NCBI RefSeq assembly: GCF_014646815.1
Contig: NZ_BMNZ01000010.1
Span: 1-64,000 of the forward strand
Direction: 5' to 3'
DNA: 64,000 nucleotides
Source of the DNA: Terrabacter tumescens
GTDB taxonomy: Bacteria > Actinomycetota > Actinomycetes > Actinomycetales > Dermatophilaceae
Made by a program: the position numbers and the translations under genes. How positions within the stretch are numbered: position 1 is the stretch's first letter; every line of letters begins with the position of its first letter. The notes beneath the pieces were generated by a model that made no database searches, was not told where the DNA came from, and saw only the letters and a list, made by a program, of their open reading frames with translations. Below are positions 1-64,000 of the stretch, piece by piece.

Positions 1-1260
1 GGCGACGAGGTAGGCGCAGAGGCCGACGATGACGGCGGTGATGAGCGTCGCGACGGCCGTCGTGAGCCGGTGGTTGACGAGCACGCCCATGATCCGTCGG
101 TCGCGCGTGAAGAGCAGGAGCGGCACGAGCGTCCCCGGCAGCGCGAACGAGAGGACGACCTGGCTCCACACGAGCGCGTTGGTCGGCTCGACGCCGATGC
201 CGAGGATGACGAGCGCGGGCACGACGGCGAGCAGGCGCCGCAGGAGCGGCGCGATGGGCCGCCGCCCGAAACCCTGCATGACGACGTCTCCCGTCTGGAC
301 CCCGACGAGGGTCGACGCGAGACCGGAGGCGAGCAGGGCGACGGCCAGCATCGTCGCGACGATCTGTCCGGCGCTGGCCGAGAGGGCGGCATACGCCGTC
401 TCGATGCTCGCGCCCGCCTCGGACGGCAGGGCGGCGGAGAAGACGACGAGGCTGACGTTGGCGACCCCGGCGACGGTCATGGCGATGACGACGCTGCGCA
501 CCGTGCGGCGGCCGGCGCGGAGGCGCCCGGCCTGGGCGACCTCCGCAGAGCCGTCGTCGTGGCCCCGCGACGCGGCGGAGTGGAAGTGCAGGGCGTGCGG
601 CATGACGGTGGCGCCGACGATGCCGACGGCGAGCAGCGCGGCCGACGAGTCGAGCGGGCTGGGGACCACCGACTTGAGGAGCGCGACCCGGTCGACGTCG
701 GCGATGAAGACCTGCCAGACGAGCGAGGCGATGATGACGACGAGCAGCACGAGCACGACGGAGTCGAAGTGGCTGCGGCCGCGGACCTTGAGCGCGAGGA
801 CGGCGAGGCTGAAGAGGGTCACGCAGACGGCGCCGGCCATGAGCGGCATGCCGAAGAGCAGCTTGAGGGCGATGGCGCCACCGACGATCTCGGCCAGGTC
901 GGTCATGATGACGACGAGCTCGGCCTGGGCCCACAGCAGCAGCCGGCCGACGCCGGGGAAGCGCTCCGAGCTGTGCTCGGCGAGGCTCTTGCCGGTGACC
1001 ATGCCGAGCTTGGCCGCGAGGTACTGGATGACCATCGCCGAGCAGCTGGCGAAGACGACGACCCAGACGAGGGCATAGCCGTGCTCGGCGCCCGAGGTGA
1101 TGTTGACGCCGAAGTTGCCGGGGTCGACATAGGCGATCGCAGCGAGCAGCGCCGGCACGAGGGTGCGGGGCGCGCTGATCGTGCCGCCGAGACCACGCTC
1201 CGGCGACCGGTCGTCCACGCGCGGCTGCTGCGCCACTCGCTCACCCATGGGACACAGCAT
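1..1260 (-). CDS. mntH: NRAMP divalent metal transporter MntH (3' end cut by window)
   Basis: Proton-coupled Mn2+/Fe2+ importer of the cytoplasmic membrane. The frame is open for 420 codons to the window edge; the family is usually 400-450 residues, so little is missing. The TM1 metal-binding motif DPGN is at residues 46-49 and the TM6 signature MPHALHFHS is present; hydrophobic helices follow one another throughout. The ATG at 1260 follows GTGAGG at a short distance; an in-frame ATG at 1248 is an alternative and no strong ribosome site decides between them. Family assignment is firm from the two motifs; Mn over Fe preference is inferred from the family. Confidence 0.9.
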   Translation of the reverse strand, partial: MLCPMGERVAQQPRVDDRSPERGLGGTISAPRTLVPALLAAIAYVDPGNFGVNITSGAEHGYALVWVVVFASCSAMVIQYLAAKLGMVTGKSLAEHSSERFPGVGRLLLWAQAELVVIMTDLAEIVGGAIALKLLFGMPLMAGAVCVTLFSLAVLALKVRGRSHFDSVVLVLLVVIIASLVWQVFIADVDRVALLKSVVPSPLDSSAALLAVGIVGATVMPHALHFHSAASRGHDDGSAEVAQAGRLRAGRRTVRSVVIAMTVAGVANVSLVVFSAALPSEAGASIETAYAALSASAGQIVATMLAVALLASGLASTLVGVQTGDVVMQGFGRRPIAPLLRRLLAVVPALVILGIGVEPTNALVWSQVVLSFALPGTLVPLLLFTRDRRIMGVLVNHRLTTAVATLITAVIVGLCAYLVA

Positions 1261-1363
1261 CGGGCCTCACGGGCGGCCGCGCCAACTCCCTGGACGTCAG
1301 TGCGACCCACGCCTCACGCCGCGAGTCGCGGACCCAGCCCGGGCCGGGCCGGACGTCCGGCGC

Positions 1364-2827
1364 TCAGCGGGCCGAGGCCACCCCGAGCAGCGCGGCGATC
1401 CCGAGCGCGCTGCGCGGGTCGTAGGCAGCGGTCCACAGACCTCCGTGGGCTGCGGCATACGCCTCGTCCTGCCACGGGTTCGGCTGCGCGGGAGCGCCGG
1501 TGCGCAGGTCGTGGACGAGGAGCGCGGCCATGAGCGTGTTGGCCGTGCCGGGCTCGAAGACCTCGATGCCGAAACGGTGCGCGCCGGCATAGGCCGCCGC
1601 GAGCGCGCGGTTCTTGACGACGGAGCGCGTGCGCGTCGGCGGGGCGACCTTGAACGACACGAGGCCGCCGTCGGCGCGGTATGCCGTCGCGCGCCACCGC
1701 TGGAGCCGCTTGGCGAGCAGGTAGTTGGGTCCCTGCTGGAGCACGACGCTGTCGTTGACGCCGGGGTCCTGGCCTGGCACGTAGTTGCGCCGCAGCAGTC
1801 GGCCGCCGCTCACCGTGCGGAGCGGCACGCGCAGCACCTTCGAGGTGCGGCGGTGGGCGTAGCTGTCGACGGAGCGCTCGACAGCAGCGCCCGGCACCGC
1901 GAAGACGTCGGTCGGGGTGGCGAGGAAGGCGAGGGCGACGTCGTCGCGCCCCTTCGCCTCGACGACCTGACGGGTCAGGGCGTCGACGGCCATCGAGACG
2001 CGGACGTTGGTCTCGCCGTCGGCGTAGACGTAGTTGCCGATCGCGAGGGGCCCCTCGAGGGAGGACACCCACCGGGTGACCGCGCCGAGGTCGTGGACGA
2101 GGTCGCCGCCGGCGCGCGCAGCGAGCGGCTCCTCGCCCGGACGCACCGGCACCGTGATCGAGCCTGCTAGCCGCCGGGTGTCGCCGATCAGCCTGTCCCA
2201 CAGGTCCTTTCGTGGCAGGTCGACGGCTGCCACATCGGCGCCCCAGCGGAGCAGCGACCGGAGCGGGCCCATCTCCGCAGCCGCACCGAGCACGACGACG
2301 GTGCGGTCCGAGAGGTCGAGCCACTCGGGGTTGTCGACGACCCGACCCACGGCCTCGGCGCACGTCGGCTCGATGGTGCCCGTCTCGACCCAGAGGTCGA
2401 GACGACGGCGCAGCGCGTCCCCCGAGAGGCGCTCCCCGGCATACGGCACCGAGAGGGTGCGGTCCGGCAGACCCTCGCCGCGGATCGTCTCCGAGCCGAG
2501 CGGGCTCACGCCGCCGTCGTCCCCGAACGCCGCGTCGAGGGGGTGGTCACCGCCGCCGTCGACCCAGCGCATCCGCTCGTGCAGGGACTCCAGGCCCCTG
2601 CGCGCGATGGTGCGGGCCGCGTCCGGCGAGGTCAGCCCCGCCTCGACGAGGCGCCGGAAGTGCGGGAGATAGCCCTGGCGCCAGTTCGTCTCGCGCTCCG
2701 CCGAGGCCGCGCCCACCGGGTCGACCGCGCGCAGGGCGTCGGCGACGACGGCCCGCCCGGTGGCGGTCGTGCTGCGGCGTCCGGACGACGGGTCGAGTGG
2801 GAAGACCACTCCGCGGGGCTCGCTCAT
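1364..2827 (-). CDS. conserved protein with central Rossmann-like segment, function unknown
   Basis: I do not recognise a characterised family for this 487-residue protein. The N-terminal third is helical and charged. Around residues 170-195 a stretch reading VVVLGAAAEMGPLRSLLRWG, followed by an acidic strand (AAVDLP), looks like a nucleotide-binding beta-alpha-beta unit. The C-terminal third is basic and aromatic (MARTSK-like, RRNYVPGQDP). No signal peptide or membrane helix is visible. It stands alone between mntH and a secreted protein on the same strand. CAGGAT lies 6 nt before the ATG, a possible weak -10 for a leaderless message. It could be a dehydrogenase-like or SAM-binding protein; the sequence does not decide. 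Confidence 0.75.
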   Translation of the reverse strand: MSEPRGVVFPLDPSSGRRSTTATGRAVVADALRAVDPVGAASAERETNWRQGYLPHFRRLVEAGLTSPDAARTIARRGLESLHERMRWVDGGGDHPLDAAFGDDGGVSPLGSETIRGEGLPDRTLSVPYAGERLSGDALRRRLDLWVETGTIEPTCAEAVGRVVDNPEWLDLSDRTVVVLGAAAEMGPLRSLLRWGADVAAVDLPRKDLWDRLIGDTRRLAGSITVPVRPGEEPLAARAGGDLVHDLGAVTRWVSSLEGPLAIGNYVYADGETNVRVSMAVDALTRQVVEAKGRDDVALAFLATPTDVFAVPGAAVERSVDSYAHRRTSKVLRVPLRTVSGGRLLRRNYVPGQDPGVNDSVVLQQGPNYLLAKRLQRWRATAYRADGGLVSFKVAPPTRTRSVVKNRALAAAYAGAHRFGIEVFEPGTANTLMAALLVHDLRTGAPAQPNPWQDEAYAAAHGGLWTAAYDPRSALGIAALLGVASAR

Positions 2828-2881: not shown

Positions 2882-3505
2882 TCAGTCCCGTTGGCGCCGG
2901 TCGAGCACGAGGTAGTTGACCGTGGCCGTCGCGACATTGCCGGCCCGGTCATGCGCAACACAGCCGACCGTGTGCATCCCCGGCCGTCGGGTGGACACGA
3001 CGTGGCTGCCGTTGCAGCTCTGAGCGGCGACGCCGGACAGCACGTCCGTCGCACGGGGAAGCACGACGACCCTGCCTCCCTGGTCCACGACGGCGGGCTC
3101 GGCGACGGGGTCCAGCTCCGGCGGGGTGCCGTCGTAGCGGTAGGAGAAGCCGGCGTATGCCGCCGCGTGCCCAGCACCGTTGACGCACGTCCCGTAGACG
3201 GTCCGTGGAGTTGCCGTGTCGACTGTCACGACGAGACCGTCCTGACACCAGTCGATCCCACTGCCGGGGTCCACGGCCGCCCATCGATAGTGGGTCGGGG
3301 CGGAGTACCAGCCGTCCGCGTTCGGGCCGTCCTCCAGGTGCAGACCGGTCGGTGGTGTGGGGTCGTGGACGACCGCCACTGCGTGGGGGTCGGGGCTCGC
3401 CACTCCGTGCGCCCCTGTCAGGCCCAGTCCACCCCACGTGAGGACCGCGAGTCCTGCGCCCCACGCGATGGCGGAGGCCGTGCCGTGTGCGCTGGGTCCT
3501 GTCAT
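2882..3505 (-). CDS. secreted protein with Ig/HYR-like repeat
   Basis: 207 residues. A hydrophobic N-terminal segment (about residues 9-30, AIAWGAGLAVLTWGGLGLTG) is a signal peptide or anchor. Two beta-sandwich-like stretches follow: one with W-C and T-C pairs (DWCQDG, YGTCVNG), then an HYR/bacterial Ig-like block with the typical DxxSGVxxxSC...GxHTVxCVAxDRAGNVxxATVxY pattern. Such domains mediate adhesion or substrate binding outside the cell. The ATG at 3505 is preceded by GGGAG at about 6 nt. No enzymatic domain is visible, so it may be an accessory cell-surface protein. The role is inferred only from the fold pattern. Confidence 0.7.
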   Translation of the reverse strand: MTGPSAHGTASAIAWGAGLAVLTWGGLGLTGAHGVASPDPHAVAVVHDPTPPTGLHLEDGPNADGWYSAPTHYRWAAVDPGSGIDWCQDGLVVTVDTATPRTVYGTCVNGAGHAAAYAGFSYRYDGTPPELDPVAEPAVVDQGGRVVVLPRATDVLSGVAAQSCNGSHVVSTRRPGMHTVGCVAHDRAGNVATATVNYLVLDRRQRD

Positions 3506-4162: not shown

Positions 4163-4771
4163 TCAGCGCAGGCCGGCTCCGATGCGCTCGAACGCCTGGT
4201 CGATGTTGCGCTCGAGGCGGCCGGAGCCGCCGTTCTGCTGGTGCTCGATGCAGGCGCGCACGGCGGCGATGGCGACGGCCACGGTGAGGCGGGCCTCGAG
4301 CGAGGCCCCCGGCCGGACGCCGAGGCGGCGCTCGAGCGCCGCCGTCAGGGCGTTCTCGATGCGGATGTTGTTGCCGACGAGGGCGGGCGCGAGCGAGGGC
4401 TCTCCGAGCAGGATCCGGCGCCGGCGCGCCCGCAGCTCCTTGTCGATCGAGCTGGGCGCGAGCATGGACGCGAGGATCCGGCGAAGGGACTCGAGCGGCG
4501 TCTCGCCGTGGACGTCCTCCTCGAGGGCGGCGGCATACGACTCGAGCTCCTCGGCCGTCGTGCCGATGACGGCGGCCTCCTTGGACGGGAAGTAGTTGAA
4601 GAAGGTGCGGGCGCTGACGCCGGCGCGGGACGCGATCTCCTCGGTGGTGACGGCCGCGAAGCCCTTCTCCTCCACGAGGTCGAGGGCGGCGAGGTTGAGC
4701 GCGCGGCGGGTCTCGCGCTTCTTGCGCTCACGCAGGCCGCACGACTCGTCGGTCAGCAGGTCCGTGCTCAT
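4163..4771 (-). CDS. TetR-family transcriptional repressor
   Basis: 202 residues. The N-terminal TetR helix-turn-helix spans about residues 18-65, with the typical ALDLVEEKGF...TTEEIASRAGVSARTFFNYFPSKEA pattern. The C-terminal all-helical half would bind a ligand. It is transcribed divergently from the drug exporter starting at 4846. The 74-bp gap holds overlapping palindromes (4801-4823), so it very likely represses the exporter and itself. The inducing ligand cannot be told from sequence. Confidence 0.92.
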   Translation of the reverse strand: MSTDLLTDESCGLRERKKRETRRALNLAALDLVEEKGFAAVTTEEIASRAGVSARTFFNYFPSKEAAVIGTTAEELESYAAALEEDVHGETPLESLRRILASMLAPSSIDKELRARRRRILLGEPSLAPALVGNNIRIENALTAALERRLGVRPGASLEARLTVAVAIAAVRACIEHQQNGGSGRLERNIDQAFERIGAGLR

Positions 4772-7153: not shown

Positions 7154-7238
7154 GTATGCCGTGTGGCCAGGCGGCGTATGCCGGGTGGCCGGGGCGCGCT
7201 CGAGCGAGCCCGGCGCTGGGGGCGGCGACACGGCATAC
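7154..7238. repeat. three copies of the GTATGCCG dispersed repeat
   Basis: GTATGCCG occurs at 7154 and 7176 in direct orientation, and its complement CGGCATAC at 7231. The first and last flanks, CCGTATGCCGTGT and ACACGGCATACGG, can pair as a 13-bp stem. The inverted copy merges into the predicted -10 hexamer of the next gene. Confidence 0.75.
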
Positions 7239-14570: not shown

Positions 14571-14578
14571 GTATGCCG
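14571..14578 (+). repeat. GTATGCCG dispersed repeat copy
   Basis: Within ACCGAGGGCGTATGCCGCG, one of the longest matches to the extended consensus, between the small membrane protein gene and the convergent ATPase gene. Confidence 0.6.
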
Positions 14579-18718: not shown

Positions 18719-19864
18719 TCAGCGAGGGCCGAAGGCTGCGGCGACCTCGATCAAGCGCGAGTTGGCCTCGACCTCGCCGATCGTGACGCGCACGCCGTCG
18801 TCGCCGTACTGCCGCACCGTGAGCCCGGCGTCGGAGCACGCCGTGGAGAACGCCGTCGAGTCGGGGCCCAGCGGGAACCACACGAAGTTCGCGTCGGACT
18901 GCGGCAGCCTCCACCCCTGGTCGGCGAGCGCCTGCACGACCCGGTCGCGCTCTGCGACAAGGGACTCCACGCGCTCGTTCAGCTCGTCGAACGCGTCGAG
19001 CGAGGCGATGGCCGCGACCTGCGCGACCGAGTTGACCCCGAAGGGCGTGGCCGTCTTGCGCAGGGCAGCGGCGACGGGAGGGTGCGCGACGGCATACCCC
19101 ACCCGCAGGCCGGCGAGGCCGTACGCCTTGGAGAAGGTGCGCAGGACGACGACGTTGGGGCGGTGGCGCCACACGTCGAGCCCGCGCACGGCCTCGGGGT
19201 CGCGGACGAACTCGACGTACGCCTCGTCGACGACGACGATGACGTCGTCCGGGACCTTGTCGAGGAACGCCTCGAGCTCGGCCTGGTGCACGCACGGACC
19301 GGTCGGGTTGTTCGGCGTGCACACGAGGATGACGCGGGTGCGGTCGGTGATCGCGGCGAACATCGCGTCGAGGCGGTGGCGCGCCTGCTCGTCGAGACCG
19401 ACCATGACCGGCTTGGCACCGGCGAGCTGCGTGACGATCGGGTAGGCCTCGAAGGAGCGCCACGCGAAGACGACCTCGTCTCCGGCGTCGCACGCGGCGT
19501 TGACGATCTGCGCCAGCACGGCGACCGAGCCGGTGCCGGTCGCGATGCACTCAGCCGGCACGTCGAGCGCCTTGGCGAGGCGCTCGGTGAGCGCCGTGAC
19601 GGCCATGTCGGGGTAGCGGTTGACCGTGGTGGCCGCGTCGTCGATGGCGGCGAGCACCGAGGGCAGCGGGCCGTACGGGTTCTCGTTGGACGACAGCTTG
19701 TAGGCCGTCACGCCGGCAGGTGCCGCCGCGGGCTTCCCGGGCTTGTAGTCGGGCATCTGCGCGAGCACCTCGCGCAGGCGGACCGTGGTCGCCGACGCCG
19801 GCGGGGCGGCATACGCCTCCTGCGGGGTGGCACTCTCGGTCACGCTCTCGGTGGTGTCGCTCAT
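18719..19864 (-). CDS. pat: aromatic amino acid / histidinol-phosphate aminotransferase (Pat/HisC2 type)
   Basis: 381 residues. PLP-dependent fold-type I aminotransferase: [13 protein letters not shown] near the N-terminus, [21 protein letters not shown], and the PLP-lysine motif [15 protein letters not shown]. The pattern [12 protein letters not shown] and the overall match to mycobacterial Rv3772 favour Pat, which makes phenylalanine/tyrosine from their keto acids; HisC activity is the alternative. The first ~28 residues are a disordered Thr/Ser/Glu-rich leader. TACAGT ends 6 nt before the ATG at 19864, supporting the start. Divergent from pfkA. Confidence 0.88.
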
Positions 19865-21566: not shown

Positions 21567-21610
21567 ATGCCGTGAGCCCGCCTTCCGTCCGGAGGGCGGG
21601 CTCACGGCAT
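21567..21610 (+). terminator. 16-bp terminator-like hairpin carrying a GGCAT repeat word
   Basis: Perfect arms ATGCCGTGAGCCCGCC (21567-21582) and its complement (21595-21610) with a 12-nt loop. It lies between the pfkA operon and the convergent pxpC. The right arm runs into CGGCATAC, linking it to the dispersed repeat. Confidence 0.8.
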
Positions 21611-21640
21611 ACGACCCTTCCCAGACGCGGCCGCGGGGCG

Positions 21641-25382: not shown

Positions 25383-25383
25383 C

Positions 25384-28585: not shown

Positions 28586-28591
28586 GGGGCC

Positions 28592-32067: not shown

Positions 32068-32075
32068 GTATGCCG
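32068..32075 (+). repeat. GTATGCCG dispersed repeat copy in paaN/paaH gap
   Basis: Reads CGTATGCCGTGTGG, matching the extended consensus, between the divergent paaN and paaH genes. Confidence 0.6.
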
Positions 32076-43353: not shown

Positions 43354-43361
43354 CGGCATAC
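43354..43361 (-). repeat. GTATGCCG dispersed repeat copy
   Basis: Complement reads ACCGAGGGCGTATGCCGTG, a full-length match to the extended consensus, overlapping the convergent junction with the GntR gene. Confidence 0.65.
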
Positions 43362-43895: not shown

Positions 43896-45374
43896 ATGGA
43901 TGCAACGGACCTGGCACGGTGGCAGTTCGCCATCACCACCGTGTACCACTTCCTCTTCGTGCCGATCACGATCGGCATGTCCCTCATCGTCGCCGTCTTC
44001 CACACCGCCTGGGTGCGCACGCGCAACCCGGAGTGGATGAGGCTGGCCAAGTTCTTCGGCAAGCTCTTCCTCATCAACTTCGCGCTCGGTCTCGTGACCG
44101 GCATCGTGCAGGAGTTCCAGTTCGGGATGAACTGGAGCGACTACTCGCGCTTCGTCGGTGACATCTTCGGTGCCCCCCTGGCGATCGAGGCGCTGCTCGC
44201 CTTCTTCCTCGAGTCGACCTTCCTCGGACTGTGGATCTTCGGCTGGGGCCGGCTGCCGGAGAAGCTGCACGCCACGACGATGTGGCTCGTGCACATCGGC
44301 ACGGTGCTCTCGGCGTACTTCATCCTCGCCGCGAACTCCTTCATGCAGCACCCGGTCGGCTACACCTACAACAGGGCGAGCGGCCGCGCCGAGCTCACCG
44401 ACTTCTTCGCGGTGCTGACCAACAAGGTCCAGCTCGTCACCTTCCCGCACGTCGTCCTGTCGGCCTACATGGCCGGCGCCGGCGTCGTCATGGGTGTCGC
44501 GCTCTGGCTCATGCGCCGCGAGGCCAAGCGCGCCGCCGACGACGCGCAGGACGTCGCGCGCACCGACGCCCCGATGTACCGCCGGGCCACGCGCATCGGC
44601 GCGGTCTTCGCCCTCGTCGCCGCCGTCGGCGTCATCGTCTCCGGCGACGTGCAGGGCAAGATCATGACCGAGGTGCAGCCGATGAAGATGGCCGCCGCAG
44701 AGGCGCTCTACGACTCCGTGCCGGCCGGCCAGGGAGCACCCTTCTCCGTGCTGACGATCGGCTCGCTCGACGGGTCCCACGCCAACGCGCTCATCGAGGT
44801 CCCCGGCCTGCTCAGCTTCCTCGCGACCGGCGACTTCAAGGGCGCCGTCCGGGGCATCAACGACCTCAAGGCCGAGTACGCCCAGACGTACGGCGCGAGC
44901 GGCAACCCCCGCGTCGCCGACGTCGCGACCGCCTTCGTGCCCAACATCCCGACCACCTACTGGTCGTTCCGTCTCATGATCGGGCTCGGCATGGCGACGG
45001 TAGCCATCGCGCTGGCGGTGCTGTGGCTGACCCGCAAGGGCCGCACCCCCACCTCGAAGTGGATGGCGTATGCCGCCGTGGCCGCTCCGCTCCTTCCCGT
45101 CTTCGCCAACAGCTTCGGCTGGATCTTCACCGAGGTCGGCCGCCAGCCCTGGCTCGTCTTCGGCCTCATGACGACGGCCAACGGCGTCTCCCCCGGCGTC
45201 TCGATGGGCGAGGTCATCACGTCGATGGTCGTCTTCACCCTCCTCTACGGGGCGCTGGCCGTCGTCGAGATCAAGCTCTTCCTGCACTACGTCCGCAAGG
45301 GGGCCGAGCCCTTCGAGGAGCCGCAGGAGCCCGCCGACCGGGACGAGGACGCACCCCTCGTCTTCGCCTACTGA
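43896..45374 (+). CDS. cydA: cytochrome bd oxidase subunit I
   Basis: 492 residues, about nine helices. Quinol-oxidising, haem-bearing subunit of the high-affinity bd oxidase. His18 (VYHFLFVP) matches the haem b595 ligand; the short Q-loop fits the non-proteobacterial type; GRQPWLVFGLMTT is the family signature. CGGAGT is 6 nt before the ATG. It heads cydABDC, whose products allow respiration at low oxygen or when the aa3 branch is blocked. Confidence 0.95.
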   Translation: MDATDLARWQFAITTVYHFLFVPITIGMSLIVAVFHTAWVRTRNPEWMRLAKFFGKLFLINFALGLVTGIVQEFQFGMNWSDYSRFVGDIFGAPLAIEALLAFFLESTFLGLWIFGWGRLPEKLHATTMWLVHIGTVLSAYFILAANSFMQHPVGYTYNRASGRAELTDFFAVLTNKVQLVTFPHVVLSAYMAGAGVVMGVALWLMRREAKRAADDAQDVARTDAPMYRRATRIGAVFALVAAVGVIVSGDVQGKIMTEVQPMKMAAAEALYDSVPAGQGAPFSVLTIGSLDGSHANALIEVPGLLSFLATGDFKGAVRGINDLKAEYAQTYGASGNPRVADVATAFVPNIPTTYWSFRLMIGLGMATVAIALAVLWLTRKGRTPTSKWMAYAAVAAPLLPVFANSFGWIFTEVGRQPWLVFGLMTTANGVSPGVSMGEVITSMVVFTLLYGALAVVEIKLFLHYVRKGAEPFEEPQEPADRDEDAPLVFAY

Positions 45375-46491: not shown

Positions 46492-48225
46492 GTGAAGCCC
46501 TTCGACCCACGACTCCTCCGGGCGGTCCCCGCCGCCCGGAGGCCCGTCGCCGTCCTCGCTGCAACCGGCATCGCGAGCGGCCTGGCGACGATCGCCACGG
46601 CCTTCGCGCTGTCGGCGGTCGTCGTGGCCGTCGTCGAGGGGCGTGACCTCGTCACCCCGCTCGCCTGGCTGCTCGGGCTCTTCGCGGTGCGGGCCGTGCT
46701 CGCCGCGGCCACCGAGTGGGTGGCGGCGTGGGCCGGCGTCTCGGTGTCGTCGGCGCTGCGGGCGGCGCTGCTGCGGCGCTGGGGCACCGTCGACGCGGAC
46801 GTACGGCTCGAGCCGGGTGCAGCCGTGTCGCTCGCGACCGCGGGCACGGCAGCCGTGGAGCCCTATGCCGCCCGCTTCCTGCCGACGCTCGTCACCGCCG
46901 CGGTCGTGCCGGCGCTCGCCATCGCCACGCTCGTGGTCGTCGACTGGCCGAGCGCGCTCGTCGTCGTGCTGACCCTGCCGCTGCTGCCGGTCTTCGCCGC
47001 CCTCATCGGCAAGGCGACGGCCGAGTCGACCGAGCGCCGCTGGTCCGCCCTGGCTGCACTGTCGGGCCACTTCCTCGACGTCGTGCGCGGCCTGCCGACC
47101 CTCGTCACCTACGGACGGGCCCGGCGCCAGGTGACGACGGTCCGCGAGGTCAGCGACCGGCACCGGCGCGCCACGATGGAGACGCTGCGCATCGCCTTCC
47201 TCTCGTCGGCCGCCCTCGAGCTGCTCGCGACGATCTCCGTCGCCATCGTCGCCGTGACCGTCGGCCTGCGGCTCTCGACCGGGTCGATGGCCCTCGGGCC
47301 GGCCCTCGTCGCGATCCTGCTGGCGCCCGAGGCCTACTGGCCGGTGCGCCGGGTCGGCGCGGAGTACCACGCGGCGGCCGACGGCGCGGTCGCCCTCGAC
47401 GCGATCCTCGCCCAACTCGAGCCCAACCCGACCTCCGCCCCACATTCCGCACCGAACGCCGCGTTCGGTGCCGAAAGCGCTGCTCTAACAATGAGTTCGA
47501 CGTCGAACGCCGCGTTCGGTCGGGCCAGTGGGGGTGGCGGGGCGGTCGGGCGGGTGCGCCTGACCGGCGTCACCTACGCGTATGCCGGGTCGCCGACTCC
47601 CGTGATCCGTGACCTCGACCTCGTGGCCGGGGCCGGGCTCACCGTCGTGACCGGCCCCTCGGGGGTCGGCAAGTCGACGCTGCTCGACCTGGTCGCCGGA
47701 CTGCGCCGGCCGGGTGCGGGCACGGTCGAGGCCCCGGCCTCGCACTACGTGACGCAGCGCCCGTTCCTCGCGACCGGCTCTGTGCGTTCCGCCCTGACGA
47801 TCGGCCACCCCGCCACCGACGAGCAGCTCTGGGAGGCCTTGCGCGCGGTCGAGGTCGACGGCGTCGTCGCCGCGCTGCCCGGTGGCCTGTCGGCCGACCT
47901 CGGCGACGACGGCTTCGGGCTGTCGGCCGGGCAGCGCCAGCGCCTGGCCCTCGCGCGCGCCTGGCTCGCCCCCGAGACGCTGCTGCTGCTCGACGAGCCG
48001 ACCGCCCACCTCGACCCCGAAGGCGCCGAGCACGTCGCCGCCGTCGTGGCCGAGCTTGCCGAGCGCCGGGTCGTCGTCGCCGTGACCCACCGCGACGAGC
48101 TGCTCGCCCACGCCGACCACCACGTCGTCCTCGCCAGCGCAGACGCCAGGCCGGTCGAGGTGATCCTGACAGCCGGGACCCTGCCGGCATCACCTCGAAC
48201 CGCTGGAGAGGAGGGGGCACGATGA
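46492..48225 (+). CDS. cydD: CydD, ABC transporter subunit for cytochrome bd assembly
   Basis: 577 residues. N-terminal six-helix exporter domain, C-terminal ATPase: Walker A GPSGVGKST, signature LSAGQRQR, Walker B LLLLDEP. With CydC it exports thiols (glutathione/cysteine in E. coli; mycothiol pathway likely differs here) and is needed to assemble cytochrome bd. The linker between domains (about 310-346) contains two palindromic insertions (47449-47518), and the last 26 residues resemble the CydC N-terminus. GTG start; the stop overlaps cydC. Confidence 0.92.
   Translation: MKPFDPRLLRAVPAARRPVAVLAATGIASGLATIATAFALSAVVVAVVEGRDLVTPLAWLLGLFAVRAVLAAATEWVAAWAGVSVSSALRAALLRRWGTVDADVRLEPGAAVSLATAGTAAVEPYAARFLPTLVTAAVVPALAIATLVVVDWPSALVVVLTLPLLPVFAALIGKATAESTERRWSALAALSGHFLDVVRGLPTLVTYGRARRQVTTVREVSDRHRRATMETLRIAFLSSAALELLATISVAIVAVTVGLRLSTGSMALGPALVAILLAPEAYWPVRRVGAEYHAAADGAVALDAILAQLEPNPTSAPHSAPNAAFGAESAALTMSSTSNAAFGRASGGGGAVGRVRLTGVTYAYAGSPTPVIRDLDLVAGAGLTVVTGPSGVGKSTLLDLVAGLRRPGAGTVEAPASHYVTQRPFLATGSVRSALTIGHPATDEQLWEALRAVEVDGVVAALPGGLSADLGDDGFGLSAGQRQRLALARAWLAPETLLLLDEPTAHLDPEGAEHVAAVVAELAERRVVVAVTHRDELLAHADHHVVLASADARPVEVILTAGTLPASPRTAGEEGAR
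47449..47518. repeat. palindromic insertions in the CydD linker coding region
   Basis: GCACCGAACG-CCG-CGTTCGGTGC is a perfect palindrome (47449-47471). CGAACGCCGCGTTCG recurs at 47504-47518, preceded by the 12-nt palindrome TTCGACGTCGAA. Both copies are translated as NAAFG in the flexible linker. Confidence 0.75.
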
Positions 48226-48301: not shown

Positions 48302-50114
48302 CGGTGAACGGCGGCGGCGGGTCTGGTGGCCCTCGGCCGGCACGGTCCGCGGCGGCCTCCTCGGCGGCATCGCGACCGCCTCGGGCATGGCCCTCACCGC
48401 GACGTCCGGCTGGCTCATCGTCCGGGCCTCCGAGCGGCCCGTCATCCTCACCCTGCTCACCGCGATCGTCGCCGTCCGCGCCTTCGGCATGGCACGTCCG
48501 GTCTTCCGCTACTGGGAGCGCCTCACGAGCCACGACGCCGCACTGCGCCTGCTCGCCGAGCGCCGCACCTCGGCCTACGAGGCCCTCATCCCCCTCACCC
48601 CGGCCCGCCTCGGGCGCCGTCGCCGCGCCGACGTGCTCACCGGCGTCGTGGACGACCTCACGGACGTCGTCGACGCCCAGGTGCGCGTCACCGTCCCCGT
48701 CATCTCGACCGCCGTGGCCGGCGGCATCGTCATCGCCCTGACGATGGCACTCGCGCTGCCCGTCGGTCTCGTCATGCTCGGCCTCGGCGTCGTCGTGTGC
48801 CTCGTCAGCGCCCTCGCGGCCCGCCTCGAGTCCCGTTCGCTCCCGGAGCTGCTCGCAGCTCGCGCCGAGGTGACGCGCGTCAGCGAGCTCATGGCCAGCC
48901 AGGCCGGCGAGCTGCGCGCCGTCGGCGGCTGGACGACCGCGCTCGGCTGGCTCGACGACGCCCACGCCGCCCTGGACCGGGTGACGCGCCGCATCAGCGC
49001 CGGTCGCGCGACCGCGGCCTCGCTCTTCCTCGTCGCCGTCGGCGCAGCCGTCGCCGTCACGGCGGTCATCGCTCGCGACCTGCCCGTCTCGACCCCCGTC
49101 AAGGCCCTGCTCGTGCTCACGCCCGTCGCGGTCTCGGAGGCGATCACCCCGCTCGTCGACGCCATGCGGGCCCTCGCCCGGGCCCGCGGCAGCGAGCGCC
49201 GCATCGACGCGCTCCTCGACCTGGCCCCCGCCGTCGCGGCCGAGCCAGCGTCCCCCGAGGCGTCCTCGCCCGACCGGGCGCCTGAGGACGCGTCGGGCAC
49301 CCCGGCCGGGCACACGGCATACGCCGGCGGTGACCGCAGCGACGTCGAGACGCGAGCGCTCACGGCCTCGTGGACGGGCGCGCGCACCGACCTCACCACG
49401 ACCGACCTCGACGTGCCGGCCGGTAGCCGCATCGCGATCACGGGTCCCAACGGCAGCGGCAAGTCGACCCTGCTCGCCGTCCTCGCGCGCCACCTCGACC
49501 CATCCGGTGGGACCTATCTGCTCGGCGGCGCCGACGCCCTCGACCAGCCGCTCGAGCAGGCCCGTTCCCGGATCGCCGTCGTCGACGACGAGACGCACGT
49601 GTTCGGCACCTCGCTGCGCGCCAACCTCGCCCTCGCCCGCCCCGACGCCGACGACGCCGACCTCGAGCAGGCTCTCGGCGCGGCGGGGCTCACCCCGCTG
49701 CTGCGCGCGATGCCCGACGGGCTCGACACCACGCTCGGCGCTGGCGGTCGCGGTCTTTCGGGGGGCGAGCGCGCCCGCCTCGGCATCGCCCGGGCCCACG
49801 TCAGCCGCCGACCCGTCGTGCTGCTCGACGAGCCCGTCGCCCACCTCGACCCGCCGACGGCCCGCGCCGTCGTCGAGGACCTGACCAGAGGTGGCGGCGC
49901 ACCGGGTACGTCTCAGGGGGAGGCTGCGGGGACGCCTCCGCAGACGATCATCATGGTGACCCACCGCGACGACGGGGCCGACCTGTTCGACCACGTCATG
50001 CAGGTGCGGCGCCGTCCATCGGCGACGATGTCTCCGAACACTGCTCAGCACACCGCAGAAACGGACGCCCGGCCGGACGACCGCACGCACGAACCCGACC
50101 CCCCACGTCGGTAG
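48222..50114 (+). CDS. cydC: CydC, ABC transporter subunit for cytochrome bd assembly
   Basis: 630 residues. Exporter domain then ATPase: Walker A GPNGSGKST, signature LSGGERAR, Walker B VVLLDEP. Partner of CydD. Start ATG overlaps the cydD stop (ATGA). The first ~30 residues are a basic disordered leader generated by the junction duplication, the TMD-ATPase linker (about 333-375) carries a GTATGCCG-repeat copy (HTAYAGG), and the C-terminus has a ~40-residue charged extension. Confidence 0.92.
   Translation: MSTASSPDPRVEVIARPTPVPPSPRTAGERRRRVWWPSAGTVRGGLLGGIATASGMALTATSGWLIVRASERPVILTLLTAIVAVRAFGMARPVFRYWERLTSHDAALRLLAERRTSAYEALIPLTPARLGRRRRADVLTGVVDDLTDVVDAQVRVTVPVISTAVAGGIVIALTMALALPVGLVMLGLGVVVCLVSALAARLESRSLPELLAARAEVTRVSELMASQAGELRAVGGWTTALGWLDDAHAALDRVTRRISAGRATAASLFLVAVGAAVAVTAVIARDLPVSTPVKALLVLTPVAVSEAITPLVDAMRALARARGSERRIDALLDLAPAVAAEPASPEASSPDRAPEDASGTPAGHTAYAGGDRSDVETRALTASWTGARTDLTTTDLDVPAGSRIAITGPNGSGKSTLLAVLARHLDPSGGTYLLGGADALDQPLEQARSRIAVVDDETHVFGTSLRANLALARPDADDADLEQALGAAGLTPLLRAMPDGLDTTLGAGGRGLSGGERARLGIARAHVSRRPVVLLDEPVAHLDPPTARAVVEDLTRGGGAPGTSQGEAAGTPPQTIIMVTHRDDGADLFDHVMQVRRRPSATMSPNTAQHTAETDARPDDRTHEPDPPRR
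49315..49322 (-). repeat. GTATGCCG repeat copy inside the CydC linker coding sequence
   Basis: Complement reads GGCGTATGCCGTGTG. Translated as T-A-Y-A in the disordered linker between the transmembrane and ATPase domains. Confidence 0.65.
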
Positions 50115-50571: not shown

Positions 50572-51468
50572 GTGCTCCTCGTCGCGTCCCTCGTCGTCCT
50601 CGCGATCCTGCTCGCGTGGCCGGTGCCGCGCGTCCTGGCCCGCGCGACGGCTCTCCGACGCGCGCCCCGGGCCGCGCTCGTGCTCTGGCAGTCGACCGCC
50701 GTCGCCGCCGTGCTGGCCGCGCTGCTCGCCGCGCCCGCCGCGATCCCGCTGCTCGTCGGCCGGCAGGTCCGGCTCTCGGAGCACTGGGCGGTGCTCGCCG
50801 TCGCCGCAGCCCTGAGCGGGGTCGTCGCCGTGCGGCTGCTCCTGTCCGGCGACCGCGTCGGCCGCAACCTGCGCGCCGCCCGCCGCCGCCACCGCGACCT
50901 CGTCGATCTCCTCGGCGTGCCCGGCGAGGGCGCCGACCGGCACATGCGCGTGCTCGAGCACACGACGCCGACCGCCTACTGCGTGCCCGGCGTGCGCCGC
51001 CGGGTCGTCCTCACCCAAGGCACCCTCGACCGGCTCGGCCCCGACGAGCTGTCGGCGGTCCTCGCCCACGAGCGCGCCCACCTCAGCGCCCGGCACGACC
51101 TCGTCATGGAGTTCTTCACGGTCGTCCACGAGGCGATGCCCGGCTTCCTGCGCTGCGACGCCGCGCTGCGTGAGGTGAGCCTGCTCATCGAGGTGCTCGC
51201 CGACCGGGCCGCCGTGCGGCACGCGGGCCCGGTCCACACCGGTCGCGCCATCGTCGCGATGGCCGGTGGCCCCAAGCCGGCGGGCGCCATGGCGATGTCC
51301 GACAGCACCCGCGTGGCCACCGCGCGGATCGGCCTGCTCGACGCCGAGCACATCGCCGGCCTGCCGCTCCCCGTCGCCGCCGTGGGGATGTATGCCGTGT
51401 CGGCCCTCCTCGTCGTCGCACCCCTCGCGCTCTACTCCGCCGCGATCACCGAGCTGACGCTCGTCTGA
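50572..51468 (+). CDS. M56-family (BlaR1-like) membrane metallopeptidase
   Basis: 298 residues. Helices at both ends with the zinc-protease motif HERAH (AVLAHERAHLSARHD, about residue 165) on the cytoplasmic side, the downstream glutamate in LADRAAVRHAG, and no penicillin-binding sensor domain. BlaR1-like proteases cleave the BlaI repressor; the upstream BlaI is the obvious substrate. The start is a GTG. What signal it senses is unknown. Confidence 0.88.
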   Translation: MLLVASLVVLAILLAWPVPRVLARATALRRAPRAALVLWQSTAVAAVLAALLAAPAAIPLLVGRQVRLSEHWAVLAVAAALSGVVAVRLLLSGDRVGRNLRAARRRHRDLVDLLGVPGEGADRHMRVLEHTTPTAYCVPGVRRRVVLTQGTLDRLGPDELSAVLAHERAHLSARHDLVMEFFTVVHEAMPGFLRCDAALREVSLLIEVLADRAAVRHAGPVHTGRAIVAMAGGPKPAGAMAMSDSTRVATARIGLLDAEHIAGLPLPVAAVGMYAVSALLVVAPLALYSAAITELTLV

Positions 51469-54238: not shown

Positions 54239-54667
54239 CGCCACGGCGAGAGCGCCCGGCACCGCGGGCAGAGCGGCCTCGACCTCGCGCAGGCGCGACC
54301 CGTCGCGGACCCACACCCACCGGCCCTCGGCGGTGCGTCGCGCGACCTGGGTGCGCACCGTGCCGTCGCCGGTCGTGGACGTCGTCATGGCGAGGTCGCC
54401 GCTGACGACGGCGCGCGAGCTCACACCCGTTTCGCCGCCATCGAGCACGCCCGCCGCCAGCGCCCGCCCGAACGCCTCGCGGATCGCGGTGGACCCGGCC
54501 GCCTCGCGACCACGCGGCAGGCTGACGACGGCGTCGGCGGCATACAGCCCGACGAGCCCGTCGAGGTCGCCCCCGGCGACGCAGGCGGCGAAGGTGGACT
54601 CGAGGGCCTCCGGCGCAAGGGCGCCCTGAGCGGTCGGGTGCGCGGTCGGCTGCGCGGTCGTCGTCAT
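54236..54667 (-). CDS. SnoaL-like/NTF2-fold polyketide-cyclase-type protein
   Basis: 143 residues. Single NTF2-like domain: ALESTFAACVAGGDLDGLVGLYAADAVVSLP...GSTAIREAFGRAL, then four strands. Members act as steroid isomerases, polyketide cyclases or stress proteins (limonene-epoxide-hydrolase-like); no catalytic set is evident. A Thr/Pro-rich leader of about 18 residues precedes the fold. ATG at 54667 used; a GTG at 54673 is also possible. It lies upstream of the MFS gene on the same strand. Confidence 0.8.
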   Translation of the reverse strand: MTTTAQPTAHPTAQGALAPEALESTFAACVAGGDLDGLVGLYAADAVVSLPRGREAAGSTAIREAFGRALAAGVLDGGETGVSSRAVVSGDLAMTTSTTGDGTVRTQVARRTAEGRWVWVRDGSRLREVEAALPAVPGALAVA

Positions 54668-56268: not shown

Positions 56269-56323
56269 GTATGCCGTGTGTCCGGGACCGCGCCCACCCA
56301 CCCGACCGCGGCGGACGGCATAC
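56269..56323. repeat. inverted pair of GTATGCCG repeats before purB
   Basis: GCGTATGCCGTGTGTCCGGG at 56267 and CGGCATACG at 56316, in opposite orientation, 33-80 nt upstream of the purB start. Confidence 0.65.
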
Positions 56324-57769: not shown

Positions 57770-57777
57770 CGGCATAC
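57770..57777 (-). repeat. GTATGCCG dispersed repeat copy
   Basis: CGGCATACG begins 1 nt after the purB stop codon. Confidence 0.55.
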
Positions 57778-58909: not shown

Positions 58910-61392
58910 GCGAGGGCCAGGCGCCGGTCGCCACGGCGAGGCGGGACCCCGACGAGGTCCGCCTCGCCATCACCGGCATGACCTGTGCCTCCTGCTCCGC
59001 GCGCATCGAGCGCAAGCTCTCCAAGGTCGCCGGCGTCGAGTCCGCGACCGTCAACCTCGCCACCGAGAAGGCGCTCGTCTCCTTCACCGCCCCCGTCACG
59101 GTCGAGCAGATCCTCGCCGAGGTGAAGAAGACCGGCTACGGCGCCACCGTCATCGACGGCTCGCGCCCCGCCTCCTCGACGGCCGCCTCGCAGACGGCGT
59201 ATGCCGTGTCGCCCGAGAGCGCCCCCGTGGAGTCCGCGGACGGCCGGGTCGACACGCCTGCCGCCGACCGACCTGCGGCCGGGGCGCTGCTCGAGAAGCT
59301 GCGGTCCCAGGAGCTGGCTCGGCAGAAGGTCCGGGCCGCGGCGCCGCAGGAGAGCCGGGCCCGGACGGCCCCGGCCTCCTCGATCCAGCCCGCCACACGG
59401 CATACGCCCTCGTCCGGCTCGTCAGCGCACGGCTCGGGAGGGCACGCAGGCGCCGGTGGCGAGGACCACCTCGAGCACACGCCCGCCCAGAACGTGCTCA
59501 AGCCGCGCCTGCTCGTCGCGATCGCGCTGACCGTCCCGGTCCTGCTGCTCGCCATGGTGCTGCCGTCGTTCGGCGCCAGCCCGTGGCTGCAGCTGCTCCT
59601 CGCGACGCCCGTCGTCTTCTGGTGCGCGTGGCCCTTCCACCGCGCCGCCGCCGTCAACGCCCGCCACCTCGCCTCGACGATGGACACCCTCGTCTCCCTC
59701 GGGGTGCTCGCGGCGTGGGGGTACTCCGTCGTCGAGCTCCTGCAGGGGGGCATGCACCTCTACTTCGAGGTCGCCTCGGTCGTCACGACGTTCCTGCTCG
59801 TCGGCCGCTTCCTCGAGGCGCGCGCCAAGGACTCGGGCAAGGACGCGCTGCGCTCGCTGCTCGACCTCGGCGCCAAGGACGTCTCCGTCCTGCGCATCGA
59901 CCCGCAGTCGCGGATCACGAGCGAGCTGCGGATCCCGGTCGACCAGCTCGTCGTCGGCGACCAGTTCGTCGTGCGACCGGGCGAGAAGGTCGCGACCGAC
60001 GGCGTGGTGCGCGACGGGTCGAGCGCCGTCGACGCGAGCCTCGTGACGGGCGAGTCGACCCCGGTCGACGTCTCCCCCGGCGACGACGTCACCGGCGGCT
60101 CGATCAACACGACCGGGCGCCTCGTCGTCGAGGCCCGCAAGGTCGGGGCCGACACGATGCTCGCCGGCATTCAGCGCCTCGTCGAGACCGCCCAGACCGG
60201 CAAGGCCGACGTGCAGCGCCTCGCCGACCGGGTCTCGTCGGTCTTCGTCCCGGTCGTGCTCGTGCTGGCCCTCGTGACGTTCGTCGCGTGGCTCGCGACG
60301 GGCCACGACCTCGGCACCTCGCTCGCCGTCGCAGTGACCGTCCTCATCATCGCCTGCCCCTGTGCGCTCGGCCTCGCGACACCGACGGCGCTGCTCGTCG
60401 GCACCGGCCGCGGCGCGCAGCTCGGCACCCTCATCAAGGGCCCGCAGGTGCTCGAGGACACCCGCCGCGTCGACACCGTCGTGCTCGACAAGACCGGCAC
60501 CGTGACCACCGGCGAGCTGCGACTGCGGAGCATCGCGGTGCTCGGCAAGCTCTCGAAGAAGGCGGCCCTCACCGCGGCCGCCGCCGTCGAGCAGGGCAGC
60601 GAGCACCCCATCGCACAGGCCATCGTCGACGGCGCCCGCCTGGCCCGGCTCGAGCTGCCGCGGATCCACGACTTCGAGGCCAACCCCGGAGAGGGCGCCA
60701 CCGCACGGATCAAGGACACCGAGGTCACCGTCGGCAAGGCGGTGCTCTTCGAGAGCGTCGCCCCCGAGCTGCTCGAGCACGCCCGCGCGAGCGCCGGCAC
60801 CACGGTCTTCGTCGGCTGGGACGGCGTCGCCCAGGCCGCCCTCACCGTCGAGGACACCGTGCGCGAGTCGTCCAAGGCCGCCATCGCGCGGCTGCGCGCC
60901 CTCGGCCTTACCCCCTACCTGCTGACCGGCGACAGCGCCTCCAACGCCCGCAGCGTCGCCGAGCAGGTCGGCATCGACGCCTCGCACGTGCGCGCCGACG
61001 TGCTGCCCGCCCAGAAGCACGCCGTCGTCACCGAGCTGCAGCAGTCGGGACGCGTCGTGGCCATGGTCGGCGACGGGGTCAACGACGCCGCGGCGCTCGC
61101 CCAGGCCGACCTCGGCCTCGCAATGGGCTCGGGCACCGACGTCGCCATGGACTCGGCCGACATCGTGCTCGTGCGCCCCGACCTCGACGCGGTCGGCGAC
61201 GCGATCGGCCTCTCGCGCGAGACGCTGCGCATCATCAAGCAGAACCTCGCGTGGGCGTTCGGCTACAACACGGCCGCCATCCCGCTCGCCGCGTTCGGCC
61301 TGCTCAACCCGATGATCGCCGGGGCGACGATGGCGCTGTCGTCGGTGCTCGTCGTCAGCAACTCGCTGCGCCTCAAGCGCTGGGGCCGCTGA
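58906..61392 (+). CDS. copA: copper-exporting P1B-type ATPase CopA
   Basis: 828 residues. One N-terminal HMA domain (GMTCASC, about residue 24-30), then an unusually long disordered linker (about 90-190), eight helices, the intramembrane CPC motif (IIACPCALG, about 484), phosphorylation DKTGT (about 527) and GDGVND (about 721). It expels Cu(I). The linker coding sequence contains two copies of the GTATGCCG repeat (59199 and 59398), read in different frames and orientations, so part of the linker seems repeat-derived. Regulated by CsoR. Confidence 0.95.
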   Translation: MSEGQAPVATARRDPDEVRLAITGMTCASCSARIERKLSKVAGVESATVNLATEKALVSFTAPVTVEQILAEVKKTGYGATVIDGSRPASSTAASQTAYAVSPESAPVESADGRVDTPAADRPAAGALLEKLRSQELARQKVRAAAPQESRARTAPASSIQPATRHTPSSGSSAHGSGGHAGAGGEDHLEHTPAQNVLKPRLLVAIALTVPVLLLAMVLPSFGASPWLQLLLATPVVFWCAWPFHRAAAVNARHLASTMDTLVSLGVLAAWGYSVVELLQGGMHLYFEVASVVTTFLLVGRFLEARAKDSGKDALRSLLDLGAKDVSVLRIDPQSRITSELRIPVDQLVVGDQFVVRPGEKVATDGVVRDGSSAVDASLVTGESTPVDVSPGDDVTGGSINTTGRLVVEARKVGADTMLAGIQRLVETAQTGKADVQRLADRVSSVFVPVVLVLALVTFVAWLATGHDLGTSLAVAVTVLIIACPCALGLATPTALLVGTGRGAQLGTLIKGPQVLEDTRRVDTVVLDKTGTVTTGELRLRSIAVLGKLSKKAALTAAAAVEQGSEHPIAQAIVDGARLARLELPRIHDFEANPGEGATARIKDTEVTVGKAVLFESVAPELLEHARASAGTTVFVGWDGVAQAALTVEDTVRESSKAAIARLRALGLTPYLLTGDSASNARSVAEQVGIDASHVRADVLPAQKHAVVTELQQSGRVVAMVGDGVNDAAALAQADLGLAMGSGTDVAMDSADIVLVRPDLDAVGDAIGLSRETLRIIKQNLAWAFGYNTAAIPLAAFGLLNPMIAGATMALSSVLVVSNSLRLKRWGR
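59199..59405. repeat. two GTATGCCG repeat copies in the CopA linker coding sequence
   Basis: GGCGTATGCCGTGTCGCCCG (59197) in sense orientation encodes T-A-Y-A-V; CACACGGCATACGCCCTCG (59395) in antisense orientation encodes R-H-T-P-S. Both lie in the disordered segment between the HMA domain and the first helix. Confidence 0.7.
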
Positions 61393-61420: not shown

Positions 61421-61467
61421 GTTTGAGGTATGCCGGTAGCGATCCCTGCGGCGCGCCTACCTCAAAC
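61421..61467 (+). terminator. terminator-like hairpin after copA
   Basis: GTTTGAGGTA (61421-61430) pairs perfectly with TACCTCAAAC (61458-61467); the loop includes a GTATGCCG copy and GC-rich sequence that can pair further. Confidence 0.6.
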
Positions 61468-62992: not shown

Positions 62993-63528
62993 CGGACCAC
63001 GGCATGACGGACCGCGGGCCTGCGCCCGATGGTGCCTCCGCCCTGACACCGTGGACGACGACCGTCACGGCCTTCACCGTCCCGCGCCGCGGCTCCGAGT
63101 GGCTGATGATCCGCCACGAGCGCCTGGGCGTGACCTCGTGGGAGCTGCCCGGCGGTCACGTCGACCCCGGCGAGGATCTCGAGCAGGCCGCGGCCCGGGA
63201 GACGCTCGAGGAGGCCGGCGTCGCGGTCGAGGTCGGCGCCCTGCTCGCCACGTGCGTGCACGAGTGGCACGAGCGGCGCGCCCGCAAGCTCATCTGCTTC
63301 TTCGACGCGGCGGTGCAGCCCGGGCCGGCGCCGCGGGTCCCGGACGGCGAGCCCGACATCCGCGACGTCGCGTGGCTCGACCCTCTCGGGCTCCCGACCG
63401 ACGACGTCAGCCCGTTCCTGCTGCCCCTCGTCGAGCAGCAGCGGCGAGGCTGGCTCGAGCCCCCGACCCACTTCCGGATGACCCATCGGCGCAACGCCGC
63501 CGGCCTCTGGCAGCCCGCCGCGGTGTGA
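62989..63528 (+). CDS. Nudix hydrolase
   Basis: 179 residues. A complete Nudix box, GGHVDPGEDLEQAAARETLEEAGV (shown in two parts: G-x5-E and RETLEEAGV), gives the Mg2+/Mn2+ site for cleaving nucleoside-diphosphate-X substrates. The start repeats itself: MTDHG is followed by MTDRG from a 15-bp tandem duplication, so the true start could be the second ATG. Coupled to the upstream membrane protein by ATGA. The substrate is unknown. Confidence 0.88.
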   Translation: MTDHGMTDRGPAPDGASALTPWTTTVTAFTVPRRGSEWLMIRHERLGVTSWELPGGHVDPGEDLEQAAARETLEEAGVAVEVGALLATCVHEWHERRARKLICFFDAAVQPGPAPRVPDGEPDIRDVAWLDPLGLPTDDVSPFLLPLVEQQRRGWLEPPTHFRMTHRRNAAGLWQPAAV

Positions 63529-63588
63529 GGCGACGAGCCCTCAGCCGCGCCTCGGACAGGCCCCCAGCACCCACAAGGCGCCGGGGGT

Positions 63589-64000
63589 TCACGGCTGCGT
63601 GCCGACCCCGTCGGTCGGTGCCCACGGCAACGCGACCGGCCCCGGCGCCGAACTGCCCGCGGTCAGCTGCGGCGCCCCCGAGCCCGTCAGGTAGGCGTGC
63701 ACGTTGGCGGCCACCTCGCGCAACGGGCGCGGCGGCAGGTAGGCCGAGGCGCCCGCATCGAGCAGCCGGCTCACGGGCCCCGGCGCGCTGACGCCGAGCT
63801 CGTCGTCCTCGATCTCGGTCACGATGATCCGGGCGTCGGGGAACATCATCCGCAGCGACCCGAGCAGCTGCGGGCTCACCGGGTGGGTCAGCACGACGTC
63901 GGCGCTCGTCGGAGCCTTGAGCAGGTCGAGCACGACGTAGCCCGCGCCCAGCTCGTCCGACAGCCGCTGACGGGCCGCCTTCGACAGCTTCGTCGCCGTG
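63589..64000 (-). CDS. C-terminal part of an unrecognised protein (5' end outside window)
   Basis: The frame is open to the right edge, giving at least 136 residues. It contains a response-regulator-like or Rossmann-like alternation (VVLTHPVSPQLLGSLRMMFPDARIIVTEIEDDELG, then GASAYLPPRPLREVAANVHAYLTG) and a Pro/Gly-rich tail. The GASAYLPPRP...L pattern resembles the end of a receiver-like domain, but the phospho-acceptor region is not in view. Convergent with the Nudix gene. Confidence 0.6.
   Translation of the reverse strand, partial: TATKLSKAARQRLSDELGAGYVVLDLLKAPTSADVVLTHPVSPQLLGSLRMMFPDARIIVTEIEDDELGVSAPGPVSRLLDAGASAYLPPRPLREVAANVHAYLTGSGAPQLTAGSSAPGPVALPWAPTDGVGTQP

Follow-up and report, generated by a model that had tools for sequence, protein, structure and literature searches.

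We know of uptake-sequence systems only from the Neisseriaceae and Pasteurellaceae. The available text of PMC1939737 describes these sequences as steering which DNA is imported, and that of PMC3630211 describes neisserial dialects of the DNA uptake sequence (DUS) that share a core, as well as some Neisseriaceae without an abundant repeat. The subject of this report is the octamer GTATGCCG of the actinobacterium Terrabacter tumescens, found in a 64,000-nucleotide stretch (the window; positions 1 to 64,000 of contig NZ_BMNZ01000010.1, assembly GCF_014646815.1), most of whose features match DUS-type systems as the available text of PMC2397512, PMC1939737 and PMC3630211 describes them. Like the ComP-read DUS of Neisseriaceae, GTATGCCG is an abundant, non-palindromic short word with thousands of copies equally divided between the strands, an excess between genes, some terminator-like inverted pairs, high conservation, dialects with a shared core, and wordless relatives. 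Unlike the DUS, it belongs to actinobacteria, with no PilM match in 179 of 186 genomes of the host family and Tad pili instead, and the redundancy of its copies is strand specific. With the Pasteurellaceae uptake signal sequence (USS), it has in common a short core with a weaker flank consensus, equal strands and a non-coding excess, while the word and the phylum differ and USS uptake is orientation independent, according to the available text of PMC1939737. Chi, read by RecBCD or AddAB, is likewise an over-represented octamer, and the spacing of GTATGCCG implies orientation-dependent action; unlike Chi, GTATGCCG shows no replication polarity, excludes itself on the same strand, is enriched between genes, and has dialects within genera. 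HIP1 of cyanobacteria is also an octamer that is very abundant genome-wide, but it is palindromic and GTATGCCG is not.

The host family, which we take to be the Intrasporangiaceae of NCBI and the Dermatophilaceae of GTDB, was sampled as 186 genomes in 53 genera; G-numbers denote genomes, g-numbers genera, and all genes are predictions of a custom script rather than of a published gene caller. The genome of the window (G000) comprises 4.71 Mb in 23 contigs, one of which is called C1 below. Its ComEC shares 81–83% identity (best segment) with the ComEC of two Terrabacter records and one of Terracoccus, genera that NCBI places in the Intrasporangiaceae. A first-pass annotation of the window had counted at least 34 copies of the word against about two predicted; exact matching on both strands gives 35, compared with a mean of 0.81 and a maximum of 3 in 100 dinucleotide-preserving shuffles. 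As that annotation had also said, copies lie both in genes and between them, 24 in predicted genes and the rest intergenic. Across G000, GTATGCCG occurs 2358 times (1158 forward and 1200 reverse), whereas the control word, GTATGCCG read backwards, occurs 199 times (111 + 88). Such a large excess of a short, non-palindromic word on equal strands is what characterizes uptake sequences. When all 8-mers in 400 kb of G000 were scored separately in genes and intergenic DNA, GTATGCCG ranked first and its own shifted copies took ranks 2–4. Single-mismatch neighbours lack comparable enrichment: GGATGCCG reaches 1.9x with 92 copies, and higher ratios occur only in words with 12 copies or fewer. The word is thus no accident of composition, the outcome against which the annotation had hedged. 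No title among the literature matches listed for GTATGCCG concerned a genomic word.

Selection on the DNA word itself, which the annotation had suggested, is strongly supported by conservation and by codon use. The window was compared with five congeners (identity 0.869–0.880 over 39–53 kb aligned), in which 33 of the 35 sites were comparable; these comparisons are not independent of one another. Copies in genes were exact in 76 of 94 comparisons, versus 0.45 for other 8-mers, and intergenic copies in 27 of 36 (0.75), versus 0.28, so that conservation, another check the annotation had proposed, is far above that of other 8-mers. The density of the word is 1.06/kb between genes and 0.41/kb within them. 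Intergenic excess together with conservation above the surroundings is also a property of uptake sequences. In genes, 18 of the 24 window copies read TAT-GCC (Tyr-Ala), in line with the annotation's remark that the copies employ an otherwise rare TAT codon. In 464 kb (400 kb of C1 plus the window), GTATGCCG contains 107 of the 176 TAT codons and 16 of the 26 ATA codons. In the window part, TAT was kept in congeners in 58 of 69 comparisons inside the word and in 18 of 40 outside it.

These results refute the explanation that GTATGCCG arose as an accident of composition or codon use, or as a short mobile repeat, which we regard as having next to no probability left. The preference of in-gene copies for the Tyr-Ala frame (109/169) would suit a codon accident, but intergenic DNA holds 51 copies against 1.1 expected, most TAT codons lie inside the word, conservation far exceeds that of other 8-mers, and dialects replace one another. 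The short interspersed repeat that the annotation had listed among possible roles, of the repetitive extragenic palindrome or miniature inverted-repeat transposable element (REP/MITE) kind, is likewise not supported: conservation is confined to a core of 8–9 bases, the sites stand in otherwise different sequence, and little is shared past ~20 bases.

The two strands carry the word almost equally. In 50-kb bins over 400 kb, copies numbered 102/99, the most uneven bins holding 7 vs 13 and 15 vs 10, and a bin with 41 genes forward and 6 back held 17 vs 16. Over 800 kb of G000, the strands held 194/181, with mean spacings of 4060 and 4398 bases. Strand skew, which the annotation had thought worth examining, was therefore not consistent over either 400 or 800 kb, and neither the binned 400 kb nor the 800 kb showed the replication polarity that marks FtsK-guiding KOPS/SRS or a biased Chi, on a contig whose replichore position is not known.

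While the strands are balanced overall, neighbouring copies tend to alternate: of 374 adjacent pairs in the 800 kb, 252 were opposite and 122 the same, versus 186.6 +/- 9.7 same in orientation shuffles. Same-strand pairs were strongly depleted below 300 bp (4 vs 26.3 expected), less so at 300–1000 bp (27 vs 61.2) and at 1–3 kb (134 vs 174.7), and approached expectation beyond 3 kb. Opposite-strand pairs were near expectation except for an excess below 300 bp (37 vs 26.3). When sites were drawn from the pool of words with at most one mismatch, 74.0 +/- 7.5 pairs on the same strand fell within 1 kb, compared with 31 observed, and single-mismatch sites within 300 bp of exact sites were also scarce on the same strand (49 vs 75.9 expected) and not on the other (81 vs 76.2). 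Among 345 words with 250–500 copies, only GTATGCCG (ratio 0.35) and its one-base shift were so low; the next stood at 0.74. The exclusion is significant in G000, and also beyond it: pooling ten other family samples, which leaves out those of G013, G001, G025 and G133, gave 149 same-strand pairs against 208.8 expected (P 8e-6), with all ten below expectation, and 243 opposite-strand pairs against 220.0. Within 300 bp, an additional same-strand copy thus looks to bring next to no gain, and up to ~3 kb its benefit looks incomplete. Since redundancy is limited to neighbours on the same strand and a copy on the other strand is no substitute, the function looks orientation specific, with a range of kilobases. 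Same-strand exclusion over 1–3 kb with independent opposite strands is new here and unlike E. coli Chi, for which the same method over 500 kb found 18 same-strand pairs against 19.1 expected.

GTATGCCG is restricted to one actinobacterial family, the Intrasporangiaceae. It is enriched in all nine genomes of the host genus and in many other genera of the family, reaching 4724 copies in G108, and is near control level in some genera and species, for example g27, g47, G092, G016 and G122. Outside the family, 362 of the order's 396 genomes had at most ~180 copies, low multiples of control, and 1052 kb of loci placed outside the family by their titles (L136-L190) held only 15. Within the family, other words take its place; like the family limit and the strand-specific spacing, these dialects had escaped the annotation. 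Samples of 29 genomes were scanned for 8-mers over-represented in predicted genes and in intergenic DNA alike. GTATGCCG came first in 8, and five relatives lacking it had other top words: GTACGGCG in G092, GGATGCCG in G178, CGAAGGGG in G061 and G101, and CGTAGACC in G016, the last known from a 100-kb sample only, with no genome-wide count. Genome-wide counts confirmed three words, GTACGGCG, CGAAGGGG and CGGATGCCG. G092 has 3117 copies of GTACGGCG (control 294) and 19 of GTATGCCG; in G093, of the same genus, GTATGCCG reaches 3681. CGAAGGGG occurs 1198–3180 times in all 19 genomes of g27 (16) and g36 (3) and at most 396 times elsewhere; one Janibacter indicus locus holds 6 copies in 12 kb. CGGATGCCG occurs 1871–2347 times in G025, G026, G178, G042 and G043. 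Genus g15 is apparently in dialect transition: G042 and G043 use mostly CGGATGCCG, whereas two bilingual genomes hold both words (G044, 1011 CGGATGCCG and 1217 GTATGCCG; G045, 968 and 1189). Lineage dialects around a shared core are again a trait of uptake sequences; here, in a common register set by eye, the core of all five words is only G-N-A, with A as the third base.

No clear word (lowest-compartment z at most 4.0) emerged in 16 of the 29 scanned genomes: G163, G009, G028, G030, G018, G022, G046, G090, G104, G107, G122, G185, G025, G077, G023 and G133. Genome-wide counts nevertheless reveal a word in G025 and G133, so that samples of 20–40 kb can miss one, and wordlessness is unproved for the remainder. 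By hand scoring, 18 of the 53 genera have no word; these include g3, g5, g7 and g35, which pass the count rule but were scored wordless because their GTACGGCG counts may be codon background. GTACGGCG reaches ~960–1820 copies in G010, G011, G020, G021, G023, g35 and G152, and was rejected there as a dialect since it is common outside the family (240 copies in the same 1052 kb) and is not enriched between genes in G023. Also set aside were CAGGGTGC (G009) and CGTAGCGA (G046), which are almost purely intergenic and therefore probably repeats, and GTAGCGGC (G122) and GTACGCCG (G023), which were weak in the scan. In G061, a longer interspersed repeat containing GCCCGGGCAGTTGC was seen in L029-L030 and L084-L086, with 23 copies in 100 kb.

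The extended consensus of the first-pass annotation is real, though degenerate. The eight places cited for it differ from GAGGGCGTATGCCGTGTGG at 0–3 positions, the sole exact match being at 59398..59405 (-), whereas the supposed degenerate copy at ~17187 is only a two-mismatch relative. For 99 intergenic copies in the 800-kb stretch of G000, the consensus is CGAKGGC-GTATGCCG-TGTGSC. Immediately ahead of the core, C predominates in G000 (61–81%), G108, G013, G092 and G016 and G predominates in G083, G150, G175, G057 and G133, which places the preceding C outside the shared core. Where two copies in this 800 kb form an inverted pair less than 80 bp apart, the + copy comes first in 11 of 13, and several of 12 close inverted pairs inspected make up perfect terminator-like stems whose base is the word. 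Examples are window 56269-56323 and, on C1, 54768-54798 and 586440-586468.

GTATGCCG is likely to be a protein-binding site, a role that the annotation had also named. By analogy with the uptake sequences of Neisseriaceae and Pasteurellaceae, it may be one of several dialects of a word by which cells recognize their own kind of DNA in transformation, a reading that we put first and hold to be nearly evenly balanced between right and wrong. In such a system, a Tad (Flp) pilus and ComEA would capture extracellular DNA, and a pilin-like or membrane receptor would recognize the word in one orientation. The word-carrying strand would enter through ComEC and then recombine; because import would be single-stranded, one copy per strand would be needed over roughly the distance that an import tract spans (1–3 kb). 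Copies would arise by mutation, persist through selection or uptake drive, and be redundant only with same-strand neighbours, and a shift in receptor specificity would set the whole genome drifting toward a new dialect. We infer both the uptake function and the strand-specific reading. The strand-specific redundancy favours reading on a single strand, be it at the step where DNA enters a Gram-positive cell or through an enzyme that processes DNA ends, AdnAB for example; uptake is ranked first because dialects change within genera and some genera seem wordless, neither of which would sit well with a repair signal.

Genes for the proposed import route are present. ComEC was found in 180 of the 186 family genomes, four of the six misses being genomes at most 81% complete, and TadE in 181. 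In G000 and in six ComEC loci compared, a ComEA-like gene, named from its sequence features and by similarity, adjoins ComEC. Type IV pilus machinery was rejected as a partner, as PilM had matches in only 7/186. In Micrococcus luteus, transformation requires Tad genes, according to the available text of PMC4322843. Only weak TadE matches (best E above 1e-7) were obtained in 7 of 18 wordless genera versus 1 of 35 others (Fisher P 0.0013), or 7/14 versus 1/39 with the four doubtful genera (g3, g5, g7, g35) moved; this contrast was hand-scored by genus with a threshold chosen afterwards and relatedness ignored, and is a hint only.

Several observations weigh against the uptake interpretation. Nearly every genome has ComEC and TadE whether or not it carries a word, so that these genes do not discriminate word-bearers, and no receptor or reader protein was found. 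We know of no report of natural transformation in this family, although this was not searched for specifically. The orientation independence of DUS and USS is not seen here, where only same-strand copies are redundant; known uptake sequences act irrespective of orientation and their spacing is not especially even, in the available text of PMC1939737. Conservation does not extend to the flanking consensus: between congeners, a clear excess over background is limited to the core and the preceding C, and positions 1–5 after the core score 0.53–0.67, below the background of 0.765. Alternation of neighbours is significant singly only in G150, G175 and G092 and is absent in G178, G101 and G061, and in the window alone the same-strand deficit within 1 kb is 4 vs 9.0 (P 0.054). 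Finally, comparison of the 64-kb window with the five congeners gave no clear sign of the depletion in unshared DNA that uptake sequences would lead one to expect: the density is 0.31/kb (2 sites in 6 kb) where none of the five shares the DNA, 0.44/kb where one or two do, 1.04/kb where three or four do, and 0.45/kb where all five do.

The main alternative, though a rather unlikely one, is a Chi-type recombination signal, with the actinobacterial helicase-nuclease AdnAB as candidate reader. The enzyme would read the word in one orientation from a DNA end and change from degradation to recombinase loading, each end needing a same-strand word within a few kilobases. Same-strand redundancy with opposite-strand independence is orientation specific and of kilobase range, as such a signal would be, and an 8-base non-palindromic word fits the size that we take known Chi sites to have. 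The available text of PMC4824097 states that it is not known if AdnAB has any response to Chi. However, the near-equal strands over 800 kb stand against 96 to 24 for E. coli Chi in 500 kb, which also lacks the same-strand exclusion, and a change of dialect within a genus (G092 vs G093; G016 in g4) would disable repair genome-wide; the 18 genera scored wordless count against this explanation as well. Not every known Chi is orientation biased. RecBCD is ruled out as the general reader because RecC, present in 89 of the 186 family genomes, was not found in G000 or in 7 of 8 congeners, all word-bearing (one of the seven is 74% complete).

We consider it quite improbable that GTATGCCG serves a chromosome-structuring protein as its binding site or is a strand-specific methylation mark by which strands, or self and non-self, are told apart. 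The word is genome-wide, evenly spread and conserved, and the A kept third in the G-N-A register of all five words (by eye) is what a methylated base might require. Nevertheless, exclusion on one strand only has no obvious reason at a structuring site, and restriction sites, as far as we know, are usually avoided and not enriched.

Taken more broadly, it is quite conceivable, if somewhat short of probable, that these words form a new class of strand-specific genome tag, with a copy about every 4 kb per strand that is read on single-stranded or end-processed DNA and five words that possibly partition gene exchange. If so, this would be, to our knowledge, the first uptake system outside the Neisseriaceae and Pasteurellaceae; alternatively, AdnAB would have its first known Chi, or a single word would function in import as well as in recombination. 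No uptake sequence in actinobacteria was reported in the titles and abstract openings searched, coverage that excludes the subscription literature. Gram-positive uptake dialects would suggest that the uptake-sequence solution evolved independently and would predict natural transformation throughout the family. With different words in congeners and two words in bilingual genomes, the dialects would also make it possible to test how barriers to gene flow come about. Were AdnAB the reader, the question of whether it has a Chi would be settled. Same-strand exclusion would itself serve as a quantitative signature separating strand-specific from strand-blind readers of genome words.

The individual window copies are given here as exact GTATGCCG matches with strand and x/y, meaning exact in x of y aligned congeners; gene names are from Pfam matches. 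Intergenic copies lie at 7154..7161 (+, 2/3), 7176..7183 (+, 0/3), 7231..7238 (-, 1/4), 14571..14578 (+, 4/4), 32068..32075 (+, 5/5), 43354..43361 (-, 4/5) and 57770..57777 (-, 4/4), at 21605..21612 (-) and 61428..61435 (+), neither of them alignable, and in the inverted pair whose first member is 56269..56276 (+, 3/4) and second 56316..56323 (-, 4/4). Copies in coding sequences (CDS) with a named product are those in the SbcC-like gene (25422..25429, +, 3/5), an aldehyde dehydrogenase-like gene or genes (30705..30712, -, 0/5; 31836..31843, -, 5/5), and DEAD-box helicase-like (34457..34464, -, 5/5), cytochrome bd subunit I-like (45068..45075, +, 5/5), ABC transporter-like (47580..47587, +, 5/5) and P-type ATPase-like CDS (59199..59206, +, 0/1; 59398..59405, -, antisense, 0/1). 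Other antisense copies are at 1679..1686 (+, 2/3), 3155..3162 (+, 0/2), 40358..40365 (-, 5/5) and 49315..49322 (-, 5/5), and one sense copy, at 40448..40455 (+, 3/5), is in another frame. The remaining copies in CDS are at 387..394 (-, 2/2), 1453..1460 (-, 2/3), 2437..2444 (-, 3/3), 4531..4538 (-, 4/4), 19090..19097 (-, 5/5), 19807..19814 (-, 4/5), 29912..29919 (-, 5/5), 36582..36589 (+, 2/3), 41926..41933 (+, 2/3), 51390..51397 (+, 5/5) and 54538..54545 (-, 4/4).

The SbcC-like gene (window 24186-28377) directly follows another reading frame that, judged by position, is probably sbcD, an ordinary arrangement. An intergenic stretch of ~75–180 bases at window ~28409-28590 has many partial copies elsewhere in G000 and in congeners and appears to represent a family of short interspersed repeats separate from GTATGCCG. 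The three largest-looking word-free gaps that were inspected had mixed content; the reading frames of one suggest a respiratory-type gene cluster. Judged by appearance, the gap at G000 C1 652566-664540, second in size among those without the word in the 800 kb, contains an integrated element in which one reading frame is primase-helicase-like.

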